Positions 30,618 through 35,616 of a DNA stretch of 64,000 nucleotides are shown here, piece by piece (positions within the stretch are counted from its first letter, which is position 1; each line of letters opens with the position of its first letter). A program made the position numbers and the translations under genes. The DNA lies in contig NZ_CP018477.1 in the NCBI RefSeq assembly GCF_002277955.1, positions 1,612,001 to 1,676,000 of the forward strand, read 5' to 3'. The notes beneath the pieces are model-generated. The model saw only the letters and a program-made list of their open reading frames with translations, was not told the origin of the DNA and did not search any database. The DNA comes from Thermogutta terrifontis. Its GTDB lineage: Bacteria; Planctomycetota; Planctomycetia; Pirellulales; Thermoguttaceae.

Positions 30618-32195
30618 ATGCATTTCGAACCTGGGCATACGGTCGGCATTGATTTGGGAACAACGTTCTCCGCAATCGCTATTCTGGATGACGAAGGACG
30701 CCCGCGAGTCATTCCCAACGATGACGGAGAAATCGAAACGGCCAGCGTCATTCTGCTGGCAGAGAGTGGCCACGTGATCGTCGGGCCCAACAGAATGCGG
30801 GCGGCTATGGAAGATCCGCAAAACGTCATTGAGCGGATCAAGCGATACATGGGCATGCCCGACTATCGCCGTACCTTCGACGGGCGCGAAATCTCTCCCG
30901 AATTTATTTCAGCCCTGATTCTCAAAAAGTTACGGCAGGACGCAGAAAAGCAGATCGGAAAGATCGGCAACGCGGTTATCACCGTACCGTATTACTTCAA
31001 CGATGCGCGGCGCAAAGCCACCCAGGACGCGGGGCGGATCGCCGGGCTCAATGTGATCGACATTATGAATGAGCCGACTGCCGCCACGCTGACATACGCC
31101 TATAAAGAAGGTATTCTCGGGAACCCGGAAGTTCGGGTTGACAAACCCCGGAAGGTTCTCGTGTACGACCTGGGTGGTGGGACGTTCGACGTGACCGTCG
31201 TGGAATACACCCCCACCCAGTTCCGGGTCCTGGCGACCGACGGTGATGTGCAGCTCGGTGGCGTGGACTGGAATGACCGTCTCCTCGACTATGTGGCGGA
31301 CACGTTCAAGCAGCGGCACGGCATCGATCCGCGGGAATCACCCCAAATGATTCAGATCCTGCGGAACGACTGCGACCTGGCCAAGATTGAGCTCTCGGAA
31401 AAGACTGAGACGGTGATCCATTGCCGGTATGAAGGTCGTGCCATCGACGTGCCAATCACCCGCGAATTGTTCGATCAGCTAACGGCTGACCTGCTGCAAA
31501 GAACAGCTGACACAACGCTCCTCGTCCTAGAGGAAGCCCGCGTACGGCCTGAGGAGCTGGAAGCGATTGTGCTGGTGGGTGGCTCCACATTGATGCCGCA
31601 GGTGCCCGCCATGATCCGCCGGATTCTCAATCGCGAACCGTATCGCGGCATCTCGCCGCACACGGCGGTAGCCGAGGGCGCAGCGATCCACGCGGCAATT
31701 CTCGAAGCCAAATACCGCGGGGAGCAGAGCGTGCTTGCGGAAAGAATCCGTCGACGGCTGCAACTGGTGCAGCAGGAGAACGTCAACTCGCATGGGCTGG
31801 GGATTGTGGCCCTCGACCCGAAGACGGGGAAAACGATCAACCATGTGATGATCCCTCGTAACAGCCGGATTCCGATCGAAGTCCGCAGAATCTTCAAAAC
31901 CACCAAAGATAACCAGGAACGGATCACGGTGCAGGTTTTGGAGGGAGACGCACCGGATCCCTTCGCGTGTTCGCTCCTCGGAAAGTGCCGCATTACCGAC
32001 CTGCCCCCCAATTTGCCGAAGGGCTCGCCGGTCGAGGTGACCTATGCGTTCAGTGCTCAGGGACGCGTCATCGTGACGGCACGCGACAAGACCAGCGGGC
32101 GTGAAGCACGCATTGAGATTGAACGGCGGGGAGTGCTCGCTGAAGAGGAAGTTGACGCCCTCAAGCGTCTGGCTGACGAATACAAAGTCGATTAG
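30618..32195 (+). CDS. Hsp70-family protein, lid-less
   Basis: 525 residues. The ATPase domain is complete: GIDLGTTFS (10-18), VPYYFNDARRKATQDAGRIAG, NEPTAAT, VYDLGGGTFDVTVVEY and VLVGGSTLMP. The substrate domain is only about 150 residues and ends after a beta part (ITVQVLEGDAPDPFACSLLG), so the helical lid of DnaK (638 residues in E. coli) is missing. It lies 11 bases before a gene for a membrane protein with a J-like domain, so the two probably act together; a soluble cytoplasmic location is likely. GGGAAAGG precedes the ATG. Confidence 0.9.
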   Translation: MHFEPGHTVGIDLGTTFSAIAILDDEGRPRVIPNDDGEIETASVILLAESGHVIVGPNRMRAAMEDPQNVIERIKRYMGMPDYRRTFDGREISPEFISALILKKLRQDAEKQIGKIGNAVITVPYYFNDARRKATQDAGRIAGLNVIDIMNEPTAATLTYAYKEGILGNPEVRVDKPRKVLVYDLGGGTFDVTVVEYTPTQFRVLATDGDVQLGGVDWNDRLLDYVADTFKQRHGIDPRESPQMIQILRNDCDLAKIELSEKTETVIHCRYEGRAIDVPITRELFDQLTADLLQRTADTTLLVLEEARVRPEELEAIVLVGGSTLMPQVPAMIRRILNREPYRGISPHTAVAEGAAIHAAILEAKYRGEQSVLAERIRRRLQLVQQENVNSHGLGIVALDPKTGKTINHVMIPRNSRIPIEVRRIFKTTKDNQERITVQVLEGDAPDPFACSLLGKCRITDLPPNLPKGSPVEVTYAFSAQGRVIVTARDKTSGREARIEIERRGVLAEEEVDALKRLADEYKVD

Positions 32196-32206
32196 GAAGT
32201 CCGGGT

Positions 32207-33199
32207 ATGGCAAAGAAGCCGATCGACGTTTATCGCGACTGGTTGGGGATTGAGGAAACCCAGCGCCCGCTCAATTACTATCAGCTTCTCAAACTTCCCC
32301 TCTTTGAAGACGACGTCAACAAGATCCGGGAGCAGTACCGGAAACTGAACGCATATGTCCGCAAGTATGCGACGGGCGACTATGCTTTTGAGTCCCAGCA
32401 GCTTCTCAATGAACTGGCAAAGGCCATGCTGTGCCTCACCGACGCCCAGCGAAAGCGCGAATACGACGCGATGCTGGGGCGAAAGGATTTTGGTGAGGGC
32501 GTGCGGCGCACCGTTGAGGAGATTCTCCTCGCCAACAAGGCGATCACACCCGAGGCTCTGGAGCGGGCGAGGCGCTTTGCCCAGGCGGTAGGGCTGCCCA
32601 TCCATGACGCCATCATCCAGCAAAAGCTGGTGCCGCCGGATGTGGTGATGCAGGCCTACGCCGAATCACAGGGTTTACCCTTTGTTGATCTTCAGGAAAC
32701 GGCGATCGACATGGCCCTTCTGGACAAGATGCCTGCCGCGCTCGCCCGCCAGTATTCTTGCCTGCCCGTCATGGTGGACGACAATCAGTTGCTGGTGGCG
32801 TCACCTTTTCCGCTCAATCCCGATGTGGAGGAGACACTTCGTCACCTGTACGGTTTGCCTGTGCGGAGCGTGATCACCACGCCAATCGGCATCAACGCGG
32901 CGATCACACGGTACATGTCTGGCAGGGGTGACGGGCGGGGCCAAAAGGCTGCCGCCGCTCCACAAAAAGCAGCCGCCACACAAAAAACTTTCGCCCCGCG
33001 TTCCCCGGAACGTTTTCGTCAGGACCTCCAGTATGCCATTGTGGCATTTAACCTGACAGTCATTATCCTTATGCTCGCACAGTTCATGCTAAGGACTGTC
33101 TATGACTGGTCCACTCTCTTTGGGATGATCATTTTGGCGGTGATCGGAGGACTCATCGTGGGAGCAGGGACGTTCGTGTATCTTTCCCGGCGGCCATAG
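32207..33199 (+). CDS. Membrane protein with J-like domain and MshEN-like domain
   Basis: 330 residues. Residues 20-90 resemble a J-domain (YYQLLKLPLFEDDVNKIREQYRKL; LCLTDAQRKREYDAML), but the HPD motif between helices II and III is not present. Residues 105-235 resemble the MshEN/type II secretion ATPase N-terminal domain (IPDAIIQQK-like HDAIIQQKLVPPDVVMQAYAESQGLPFVDL, DKMPAALARQYSCLPV, LLVASPFPLNPD). A Lys/Ala/Pro linker (240-265) leads to two C-terminal membrane helices (about 277-295 and 305-326). With the upstream Hsp70 gene 11 bases away, a membrane co-chaperone function is inferred, not shown. Confidence 0.75.
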   Translation: MAKKPIDVYRDWLGIEETQRPLNYYQLLKLPLFEDDVNKIREQYRKLNAYVRKYATGDYAFESQQLLNELAKAMLCLTDAQRKREYDAMLGRKDFGEGVRRTVEEILLANKAITPEALERARRFAQAVGLPIHDAIIQQKLVPPDVVMQAYAESQGLPFVDLQETAIDMALLDKMPAALARQYSCLPVMVDDNQLLVASPFPLNPDVEETLRHLYGLPVRSVITTPIGINAAITRYMSGRGDGRGQKAAAAPQKAAATQKTFAPRSPERFRQDLQYAIVAFNLTVIILMLAQFMLRTVYDWSTLFGMIILAVIGGLIVGAGTFVYLSRRP

Positions 33200-33373: not shown

Positions 33374-35206
33374 TTAGCGCGTCGCGCCGTCTCGCTGGGC
33401 GAGGATCTGTTGGGCAGCCTGAAGGCCAGCCTCGAGAATTGGATCTCGCGAGGTTGACAGCAATGCCGGCGAGCCTGCGTCCCCAGAAACCGAGAACGGA
33501 TTGCCATCTGTGTTTGATCCTGAATCCGAGGGCGACCGGGCGACAAGAGGTCGTGCTGCGACCTGGACCCGAATATCCGGGATGACGCCGCGTCCCGCGT
33601 AGGGTTGGCCTCGCGGGGAGAAGAATCGCGCGGTCGTCAGCCGCAGGCCAGCGCCGGTGATGGCCAGTGGAAAGATCCCCTGGATCGATCCCTTTCCGTA
33701 ACTGGGGGTGCCCACAATCGTGCCCCGGCCCTGGTCCTGGAGGGCACCAGCAAAGATCTCCGCAGCGCTTGCACTTTCATGATCGATGAGAACCACCAGG
33801 GGCAGGGCACATTTACGAGCTTCTTGCGCGGTGTAAACGAGGTTTTCCTGAGAGTTTCGACCCTGTGTCGAGACGATGGTTCCGCCGGTCAAAAACAGAT
33901 CCGCCGTTTCCACAGCCGCTCCCAAAAGCCCCCCGGGATTGCCCCGCAGGTCGATGATGAGCGAACGCACGCCCTGAGCTTCCAGAAGACTGAGGGCCGT
34001 TTCCACATCGTGGGCTGTGGTTCGCTGAAAGCTGAGCAGTCGAAAATATCCGATTTTTGCCCGCTCATCCAGAATCCGCACGTCGGCCACGCTAGGGACT
34101 TCAACCCGCGTGCGGACTACAGAAAGCGTTCTTAGCTGGCCTGCGCGGTCCGCGATTTCCAGCGACACACTTGTTCCTTCCGGTCCTTTCAGCAGCTCTG
34201 CCGCGCGATCTGGAGATATATCTCGCACGTTCTGTCCGTCCACGGCCATAATTCGGTCCCCGGGTCGGATCCCCGACTTCTCTGCGGGACTTCCCGCAAT
34301 GACCCGCAGAACGATGAGGGCATCTTCCTGAGGACGCAACTCAACCCCGAGACCTACAAAATTACCCTCGATCTGGGAGTAAAGGTCGGACAGTTGGGCG
34401 GGAGTCAAAAAGGCAGAATAAGGATCCAGGGAGTTCACCGCTCCGCATATCATCTCCATAACGGCCGCACTGGCCGGCAGCCCAACCTTTTCGTGCAGCC
34501 ACTGTGCCAAACGGTTAACAGCGTCCAGAGCCGTCGTCCGAGACTGCACGCGAATTTGCGGAACGACAAACTCCAGATCGCGCCCGGCGCTGGCTGCCGC
34601 CTCTGAAGACAAGCTGATTTGATAGGCGGCGAGAAACTTGGGCTCGTTTAACGCGAGAGCCAAACCATGGACACCCTGACTGTAAAGTTCATTCCAATGG
34701 GGTGAGTCCACATAATGGGCCTGGATTTTAACGAGCACCTCGTCATACAGTTGGAGTGCATCTCGGGCCGAAAGATTGCGAACGGTTGTGAGAAACGTGC
34801 TATCGGCATACCGACGGATGAGGTCATAATGGAGTCGCGCTTCGTGGAAGCGTGTTTGCAGCTCCGGATGGCCCGGGAAGCGACGGATGGCTTCTTCATA
34901 AAGGCTCAGCGCCTCGCCCCAGCGGGATTGCCGCTCGAGGGACTGCCCCTGCTCCAAAACCGCTTTCAGTTCTTCCAATTCGTTTGCTGAGAGCGAAAGT
35001 TGGTCAGAAGACGGAGCATTGTTGAGCTTGCCGCCATCTGGAGCGGCCAGTCCGAAACTCATCGAAAGGAGCGAGATGCCAATGACGACTATGCAGACGG
35101 CAACTCTCAACAGCGCGATTCGCCACCGATTCGGGCAACGATGACGAACCGTGCCGGAGATCGTATGGATGGATTCGACGGATGAGTCCGGGCCTGCGTG
35201 CTCCAT
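33374..35206 (-). CDS. S41-family C-terminal processing peptidase with PDZ domain
   Basis: 610 residues. One N-terminal membrane segment (about 30-52), then TPR-like helices (WGEALSLYEEAIRRFPGHPEL), a PDZ domain (VIAGSPAEKSGIRPGDRIMAVDG) and the S41 protease domain. The catalytic Ser lies in HESASAAEIFAGALQ and the Lys in SYGKGSIQGIF. It probably trims or degrades envelope proteins at their C-termini. ATG 35206 is preferred over an ATG 111 bases upstream because GAGG/AGGA lies before it and homologues begin near this point. The TPR-like N-terminal part is an extra compared with short CtpA. Confidence 0.9.
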   Translation of the reverse strand: MEHAGPDSSVESIHTISGTVRHRCPNRWRIALLRVAVCIVVIGISLLSMSFGLAAPDGGKLNNAPSSDQLSLSANELEELKAVLEQGQSLERQSRWGEALSLYEEAIRRFPGHPELQTRFHEARLHYDLIRRYADSTFLTTVRNLSARDALQLYDEVLVKIQAHYVDSPHWNELYSQGVHGLALALNEPKFLAAYQISLSSEAAASAGRDLEFVVPQIRVQSRTTALDAVNRLAQWLHEKVGLPASAAVMEMICGAVNSLDPYSAFLTPAQLSDLYSQIEGNFVGLGVELRPQEDALIVLRVIAGSPAEKSGIRPGDRIMAVDGQNVRDISPDRAAELLKGPEGTSVSLEIADRAGQLRTLSVVRTRVEVPSVADVRILDERAKIGYFRLLSFQRTTAHDVETALSLLEAQGVRSLIIDLRGNPGGLLGAAVETADLFLTGGTIVSTQGRNSQENLVYTAQEARKCALPLVVLIDHESASAAEIFAGALQDQGRGTIVGTPSYGKGSIQGIFPLAITGAGLRLTTARFFSPRGQPYAGRGVIPDIRVQVAARPLVARSPSDSGSNTDGNPFSVSGDAGSPALLSTSRDPILEAGLQAAQQILAQRDGATR

Positions 35207-35616
35207 GCGTCCTGTCCTCACAGTGCTCCCTCGCCGAGTTCCTGCGGACGCCCACCTGCCAAAAGCAGGCAAAAGCAATTGTTGTGAATTCTTTACGTGG
35301 CGATCTTCCCAGAGCAATTCCTGCCTGGCAGCGTCAAATGACGCGCCGCCAAGCCCACATTACTCTGTTCGGATGAGTATAGCTCAGGCATCGACTCCGG
35401 GCAAAAACCCCAGCGGTGTTTTTCCCCGATTTGTCCGTTAAAACCGGCAACCTCACGAGACGGACACGCCGAACCTGATCATGGCAGAAAAGTTGACGAT
35501 AAAACATGCCATGCCACAGGAAGCGGCAGCGCCAGATTGGTAAAATTTCGCTGCATCCCCAGGGAAGATGGGGAATTTGATAAGGCAAGACCGCTATTAC
35601 TCGACGGACCAGTCGC
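35207..35616. other. Intergenic, no clear gene
   Basis: This 410-base gap precedes the S41 gene and follows the end of the oxidoreductase gene. No gene or obvious hairpin is supported. Confidence 0.4.

Follow-up and report, generated by a model that had tools for sequence, protein, structure and literature searches.

Here, we present an analysis of a two-gene locus in a 64,000-nucleotide stretch of the Thermogutta terrifontis genome (4.81 Mb, one contig; NZ_CP018477.1, positions 1,612,001 to 1,676,000), hereafter the window. On the plus strand, a gene for a 525-amino-acid (aa) Hsp70 without a helical lid (30618..32195; from the open reading frame [ORF] list and a PF00012 match) is followed, after an intergenic gap of 11 bases, by a gene for a 330-aa protein (32207..33199; from the ORF list and Pfam matches) with a J-like domain lacking the His-Pro-Asp (HPD) motif, an MshEN domain, and two predicted C-terminal membrane helices. 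An earlier note made from the sequence alone had described the locus in these terms, and our analyses bear out this description, including the spacing of the genes. The nearest named record for the second protein is from a metagenome-assembled genome of a Thermogutta sp. (92% identity). The same genome encodes a normal DnaK, two HPD-bearing DnaJ-type proteins, and five HPD-less J-like proteins, that of the window included.

Based on its match to PF00012 (E=2.9e-118) and the presence of the catalytic residues, the product of the first gene has the nucleotide-binding domain (NBD) of an Hsp70. The match goes no further than position 518 of the 599-position profile; therefore, the protein lacks the lid, and its chain ends at about the point where the lid would start. 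Twenty-five orthologue records are complete, with that of the window among them, and their lengths are 524-527 aa. We surveyed the residues of the pair Hsp70 in 30 rows from 29 genomes or records (G402 entered twice) and found that E171, T199, and D201 are kept in all of them and K70 in the 28 of 28 rows that cover the site. In the DnaJ/DnaK complex, the HPD contacts DnaK through His33, which bonds L391 in the linker, through Pro34, which is in touch with P419, and through Asp35, which bonds both R167 and Q378; the position of the J domain is set by the charged DnaK residues E206, D211, E217, and D477 (PMC8215388). At the position of Arg167 of Escherichia coli DnaK, all 30 rows have Asp (Asp148 in the window; codon at 31059..31061, +), and at that of Gln378 all 30 have His (His358; codon at 31689..31691, +). 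Aligned to E. coli DnaK, the interdomain linker reads VQQEN (31767..31781, +) instead of VLLLD; across the rows, V389 is Val or Ile (30/30), L390-L392 are mostly polar, and D393 is Asp in 21/30. D477 is replaced by Ala, Ser, Gln, Arg, or Glu, and P419 is retained. R167 and Q378 are both retained in E. coli DnaK, HscA, and HscC, and the DnaK of the same genome keeps R167, Q378, the VLLLD linker, and D477. Neither of the DnaK hallmarks sought, the helical lid and the VLLLD linker, was found in the pair Hsp70, and in an NCBIfam scan whose listed models included none for HscC, the window protein scored under the cut-offs for DnaK (414.5 bits versus 648 and 397.3 versus 822.55) and HscA (326.2 versus 708.55). 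In an NBD tree of 42 Hsp70s, all 26 rows with Asp at position 167 and one with Asn form a single clade (100/97) that excludes DnaK, HscA, and HscC, and the Asp/Arg label requires one change; just outside this clade branch four more Hsp70s of planctomycetes, in which the position is Gln, Ala, or Lys. The pair Hsp70 also has a chain end of its own: 41 distinct C-termini follow the pattern L-A-x-x-Y-x-V with variable intervening positions and a final Glu (34), Asp (6), or Ser (1). This Y-x-V-[E/D] end, YKVD in the window (32181..32192, +), would look like a docking tail that is read by its free carboxylate.

In the second protein, the J-like domain spans aa 6-92 (32222..32482, +), as delimited by sequence profiles, aligned rows, and structure lists. 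The Pfam DnaJ match of the window protein (aa 23-87; E=0.012, 20.6 bits) is below the cut-off of 27.8 bits; however, every one of the 21 J-like rows hits PF00226 with E<=1 (3.1e-5 at best), and the J domain of E. coli CbpA is retrieved (E=8e-5) by a profile built from these rows. J domains also top the structure lists obtained with a model (predicted local distance difference test [pLDDT] score, 67) whose alignment input was six rows only: the best Foldseek E-value was 0.18, which is not significant, the best VIA-align Z was 6.7, and the DnaK-bound J domain 5nro_B gave a middling Z of 6.0, a value that may reflect a common arrangement. Because the Foldseek E-values are not significant, the case for homology rests on the sequence profiles, which support that this domain is homologous to J domains. 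None of the 67 rows of the second protein, 63 of which contain the J-like domain, has an HPD, the motif for which the earlier note had proposed a counter-check. With class C J-domain proteins, the second protein thus shares the sequence homology but not the HPD. As read from the alignments, both halves of the classical J/Hsp70 contact are, thus, altered together in this pair.

The MshEN domain (aa 103-238; 32513..32920, +) was delimited by PF05157, fold match, and motif test. The Pfam match covers aa 156-240 with E=7.7e-19 and 67.9 bits (cut-off, 23.1), and the fold matches the corresponding domains of PilF (GSPIIB), PilB, MshE, and XpsE (5htl_B, template modeling [TM] score of 0.76 by target length). 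MshEN domains are protein-docking modules in pilus and secretion ATPases. Two membrane helices are predicted at about aa 267-297 and 301-327 (33005..33187, +) from the model and hydropathy; in a crude count of hydropathy peaks over the 67 orthologue rows, part of which are shortened by contig ends, 49 have two, 15 have one, and three have none. Cyclic di-GMP (c-di-GMP)-binding MshEN domains have two 24-residue motifs of the form RLGxx..G..L...L..Q (PMC5013675). In motifs I and II, respectively, the Arg is present in 1/67 and 0/67 rows, the first Gly in 2/67 and 0/67, the turn Gly in 18/67 and 0/67, and the Gln in 0/67 and 3/67. With the NCBIfam model of the c-di-GMP motif, the window protein reached 17.6 bits, below the cut-off of 38; the controls were five further MshEN proteins from this genome, of which three passed (43.6, 59.6, and 64.3 bits), one scored 32.3, and one was unmatched. 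Based on the published motif and this model, we reject c-di-GMP sensing. Thus, the idea of a pair that senses c-di-GMP is very improbable; it has in its favor the presence of an MshEN domain, but the Arg, first Gly, and Gln of the two motifs are missing in nearly all rows. Elsewhere in the genome, an 814-aa protein (L170:673-3117) has three MshEN matches and no match to the c-di-GMP motif.

The two genes form a conserved module in two planctomycete orders. In an order panel, the second protein was found (E<=1.6e-30) in 83 of 296 genomes and an Hsp70 orthologue in 64 of 292, after removal of 6 of 70 positive genomes whose sole match was a 45-47% identical paralogue. The second protein is present in all 64 Hsp70-positive genomes, and the Hsp70 thus never occurs by itself (Fisher p=9e-48, a value inflated by shared descent). 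The genes are same-strand neighbors within 1 kb in 40 of the 64 and lie on separate contigs in the other 24. In a phylum panel, from which 3 of 36 genomes were removed as paralogue-only, 35 of 294 genomes encode the second protein (E<=1e-20), and 33 of 288 have an orthologue of the Hsp70. These 33 are the window's own genome and 32 genomes that belong to a single family of a second order, all of which carry both genes; two genomes (G012 and G034) carry the second protein without the Hsp70. Among the 32, the genes are adjacent in 24, on different contigs in 4, and distant on one replicon in 4 (G452, G464, G472, and G497), so that co-occurrence persists in the absence of adjacency. Conserved adjacency in related genomes, which the earlier note had proposed as a check, is thus observed in both orders. 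In 52 locus records with both genes, which partly are overlapping stretches of single genomes, the Hsp70 gene is always first and on the same strand, with a gap of -4 to 339 bases; outside these records, the gap in G508 is about 500 bases. We searched 16 neighborhoods of unequal length for a third conserved gene and found that only the pair and opposite-strand ORFs were common to all 16.

The second protein occurs without a found Hsp70 orthologue in three groups, namely, seven genomes of family f13, three of genus g3, and three of genus g20. In the g20 trio (G153, G259, and G283), the J-like domain is absent, while the MshEN domain and the C-terminal region are retained; because the contig of G153 stops about 140 bases upstream, G259 and G283 bear the weight of this observation. 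In the other ten Hsp70-negative genomes (f13 and g3), the identity of the J-like domain to the other order is 30-55% versus 60-74% in Hsp70-positive rows; the identity of the MshEN domain is similar in the two sets (27-38% versus 28-52%). G274, which is shortened by a contig end, was excepted from this comparison. We then compared individual sites in 51 rows with Hsp70 and 10 without, dropping G274 as well as G130 and G241, in which the J motif is kept and the Hsp70 was not found; G039, G217, G229, and G244 were examined later and stand outside these numbers. With Hsp70, N48, R52, G57, Q64, and N68 are present in 51/51 rows and S63 in 49/51. Without it, N48, S63, and Q64 are each present in 0/10, N68 in 1/10, A71 in 3/10, and G57 in 4/10, and Y25, L27, R52, M74, L77, D79, R82, K83, Y86, D87, and G91 all remain in 10/10. 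Averaged over 95%-conserved columns, the gap is modest, with a retention without Hsp70 of 0.73 for 35 J-like columns versus 0.86 for nine MshEN columns. Judged from these rows, the decay signal is concentrated at sites around the former HPD, i.e., in the region at aa 48-69 (32348..32413, +) that this pattern defines and that contains N48, R52-K53-Y54, G57, S63-Q64, and N68.

Module conservation, paired presence, site-specific decay, and residue swaps, all of which are read from sequence, make it probable in our view that the two proteins constitute a J-like/Hsp70 pair that is tethered to the membrane and has a recognition code of its own, which would be independent of the HPD and use the same docking face with changed residues. 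Of the interpretation in the earlier note, the membrane-tethered pair without the classical contact stands, given that both sides of this contact are changed, and c-di-GMP sensing falls. We infer that the two proteins bind physically, that binding affects the ATPase, and that the pair has a membrane topology and a client as follows. The second protein would be anchored in the inner membrane by its C-terminal hairpin and present the J-like and MshEN domains to the cytoplasm, and the J-like domain would recruit the lidless Hsp70. The docking face would be as in DnaJ/DnaK, with the end of helix II, the loop, and the start of helix III of the J-like domain facing the Arg167/linker region of the Hsp70; the docking residues would differ, with no HPD on one side and with Asp, His, and a polar linker in place of Arg167, Gln378, and the linker leucines on the other. 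With such a changed code, cross-talk between the pair and the DnaK and DnaJ of the cell would be avoided. The MshEN domain probably selects the client or the site, and the lidless Hsp70 may make fast and loose client contacts. Because the MshEN domain and C-terminal region are kept where the Hsp70 and the J-like domain are absent, our data suggest that the MshEN domain has a job of its own and that the Hsp70 is an added activity.

Several observations weigh against this interpretation. First, while most of the f13 and g3 genomes are 92-99% complete, some of the thirteen Hsp70-negative genomes are incomplete (G070, 75%; G153, G259, and G283, 84-87%). Second, G217 (98% complete), G241 (85%), and G244 (84%) keep an intact motif and no Hsp70 orthologue was found in them, and in G039 (82%; G57S) and G130 (89%; N68G), also without a found Hsp70, one of six sites is changed in each. 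If these five are counted as Hsp70-negative, N48, S63, Q64, and N68 are each present in 5/15 rows. Four of the five are 82-89% complete, and the Hsp70 gene may be unassembled there; G217, however, is a real exception. (In G229, an Hsp70 fragment is present at a contig end.) Third, the MshEN tree needs five changes of state, of which only two are forced by well-supported branches; with so few losses, the rows are not independent and represent at least two, perhaps five, changes. Fourth, R52 is kept in 10/10 rows without Hsp70 and is therefore structural rather than a contact. For this reason, we dropped a simple charge swap between R52 and D148; K53, which is Lys in 47/51 and Arg in 1/51 rows with Hsp70 and Lys in 3/10 without, is the better, unproven, contact candidate. 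Fifth, the placement of the former HPD is ambiguous, falling on RK[YF] in a gapless alignment versus A[TSA]G, with a longer helix II, in a hidden Markov model alignment, and the J-like models are of low confidence (pLDDT about 60 and 67). Sixth, the D211 loop is missing in the pair Hsp70 but also in the genome's own DnaK and in E. coli HscA and HscC, and E217 is mostly Arg or Gln but is also lacking in the own DnaK; because the own DnaK lacks both, these two changes are uninformative. Finally, among 12 stretches with an Asp167 (in one case Asn) Hsp70 outside the pair, a J-like gene is nearby in only one (G029), and the pairing is therefore not general for the Asp167 clade.

An alternative, which we regard as unlikely, is that the J-like domain only tethers the Hsp70 at the membrane without stimulating its ATPase, with the Hsp70 acting as a slow or peptide-controlled holdase. 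Replacements in the HPD abolish stimulation, HPE being the sole tolerated one (PMC13254874), and the polar linker together with the changed R167/D481 clamp suggests altered allostery. However, the catalytic residues of the Hsp70 are intact, the J-like sites that depend on the Hsp70 bracket the old HPD site and no other face, and a designed J analogue without an HPD stimulates Hsc70 (PMC13254874). We also consider it rather unlikely that the second protein serves type IV pili or type II secretion in assembly or quality control, with an MshEN domain that would mimic or compete with the N-terminal domain of PilB/GspE and bring the Hsp70 to the machine; this possibility is compatible with the tethered pair that we favor. 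It would fit the fold matches to the PilF, PilB, MshE, and XpsE domains, the four PilB/GspE-like ATPases encoded in the same genome, and the fact that the MshEN domain and C-terminal region outlast the J-like domain and the Hsp70. Arguing against it, the ORF clusters that recur in at least four loci of the 16 neighborhoods, as judged by eye, contain no recognized pilus or secretion gene. That the two proteins are decayed relics kept by shared descent and without mutual contact is hardly credible: loss of the HPD, lid, and linker could each occur in degenerate proteins and both genes are inherited largely by descent, but the J-like domain is better conserved toward the other order than the MshEN domain in Hsp70-positive genomes and its decay is site specific where the Hsp70 partner is missing.

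The nearest known case is E. coli HscC with DjlB and DjlC, a specialized Hsp70 encoded near tail-anchored membrane J proteins with an altered motif, in which, as in the window pair, the D211 loop is lost (PMC8215388). The pair is nevertheless not a member of the HscC-DjlC group, which has HPE at the HPD position and an HscC-type Hsp70: DjlB and DjlC retain HPE, HscC (556 aa) retains Arg167 and Gln378 and has a shortened lid, and the text of PMC8215388 available to us mentions no MshEN domain for these proteins. Pam16/Tim16 of the mitochondrial import motor likewise has a J-like domain in which the HPD is replaced (PMC13254874); unlike the window protein, it acts on Ssc1 and has as its partner Pam18, a true J protein, while the window J-like domain is matched with a dedicated Hsp70 in which the opposite half of the contact is lost. 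The structural match of Pam16 to the J-like model is weak (2guz_B, Z 4.3). Type IV J-domain proteins similarly have a recognizable J domain with a nonconservative replacement of the HPD and are described as presumably nonfunctional (PMC13254874); by comparison, the conservation of the window J-like domain follows a specific Hsp70. The MshEN domain shares its fold and Pfam family with the MshEN/GSPII-B domains of PilB, PilF, MshE, and XpsE; unlike these proteins, the second protein has no attached ATPase domain and no c-di-GMP motif. Similarly, the pair Hsp70 is 38% identical to the genome's own DnaK, with homologous NBD and substrate-binding domain beta and the same catalytic residues, and differs from it in having no lid, no DnaK-type C-terminal tail, R167D, Q378H, a polar linker, and its own chain end. 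HSP70 and DnaJ-domain genes also occur in GTPase-centered conflict systems, mostly of actinobacteria and firmicutes, which is a different context (PMC7159879). A reading of the locus as a defense system found no support, as PADLOC gave zero matches at E<=0.001. Among titles and abstract openings on J domains, Hsp70, MshEN, and planctomycetes, in which few subscription papers were covered, we found no published description of the module.

The HPD is regarded as essential for the action of J proteins. According to a 2026 review, it "remains enigmatic" whether departures from the HPD are accidents or positively selected (PMC13254874). The module offers a natural case in which the HPD is gone, all orthologue rows examined show a charge reversal at the receptor residue of the Hsp70, and the J-like surface near the former HPD site is different where this Hsp70 is missing; the question thereby becomes directly testable. 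It may also represent an insulated chaperone pair for engineering, and it points to a layer of planctomycete chaperones that the family libraries used here name merely HSP70 and MshEN.

Other J-like genes bear on whether this layer is wider than the pair. The linker motif [N/D/E]-V-N-[S/A] is present in 24 of the 27 members of the Asp167 clade. In G322, from another family of the phylum (contamination estimate, 8%), a gene for a kinase-Hsp70 fusion is followed by a J-like gene and then by an Hsp70 gene; in G468, J-like, LamG-domain, and Hsp70 ORFs are consecutive; in G029, the J-like and Hsp70 genes are divergent; and in G328 and G309, an Hsp70 gene is followed by an HPD-less J-like gene, the Hsp70 of G328 having Gly at position 167. 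G322, G468, G328, and G309 were chosen because J-like genes had previously been found in them. In two J-like stretches of G344, one of which ends at a contig end, there is no Hsp70. Q64 is retained in the J-like genes of the window, G468, G322, and G029, not in that of G328, and among the remaining J-like rows compared, only in one from the window's own genome, beside a kinase. It is evenly balanced, in our judgment, whether the planctomycete Asp167 branch with its [N/D/E]-V-N-[S/A] linker and the HPD-less J-like partners constitute a second, orthogonal code beside DnaK/DnaJ. If so, the HPD would not be required for a J-type contact but only be matched to Arg167.

Further Hsp70-like and J-like proteins were observed. 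In G322 (L227:1387-3909), the fusion is an 840-aa protein in which a Ser/Thr kinase is joined to an Asp167-type Hsp70, and the J-like protein and the second Hsp70 come next. The window's own genome encodes a second lidless Asp167 Hsp70 (L064:4975-6528; 517 aa, 45% identical) in a 13-kb stretch without a J-like gene; an Hsp70-like protein of 774 aa whose active-site residues are altered and whose C-terminal stretch is hydrophobic (L065:4185-6509); two adjoining Hsp70-like genes on one strand, for 980 and 600 aa (L066:3377-8165); and a 204-aa J-like protein (L067:2874-3488) with a C-terminal hydrophobic stretch, which retains the C-Q-x-I-L-N-E part of the motif and is encoded just upstream of a Ser/Thr-kinase-like protein. 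In the other order, second Asp167 Hsp70 copies (L161, L162, and L163) end in Y/F-x-V-[E/N/D] and have no J-like neighbor in the stretch read. Around the pair itself, 5 of the 16 neighborhoods have a same-strand ORF, judged by eye to be M20-peptidase-like, at 0.9-1.4 kb upstream, and a sixth has it farther away; downstream of the pair in the window, on the opposite strand (33374-35317), is a gene for a 647-aa protein that by eye resembles a C-terminal-processing (PDZ/S41) protease.

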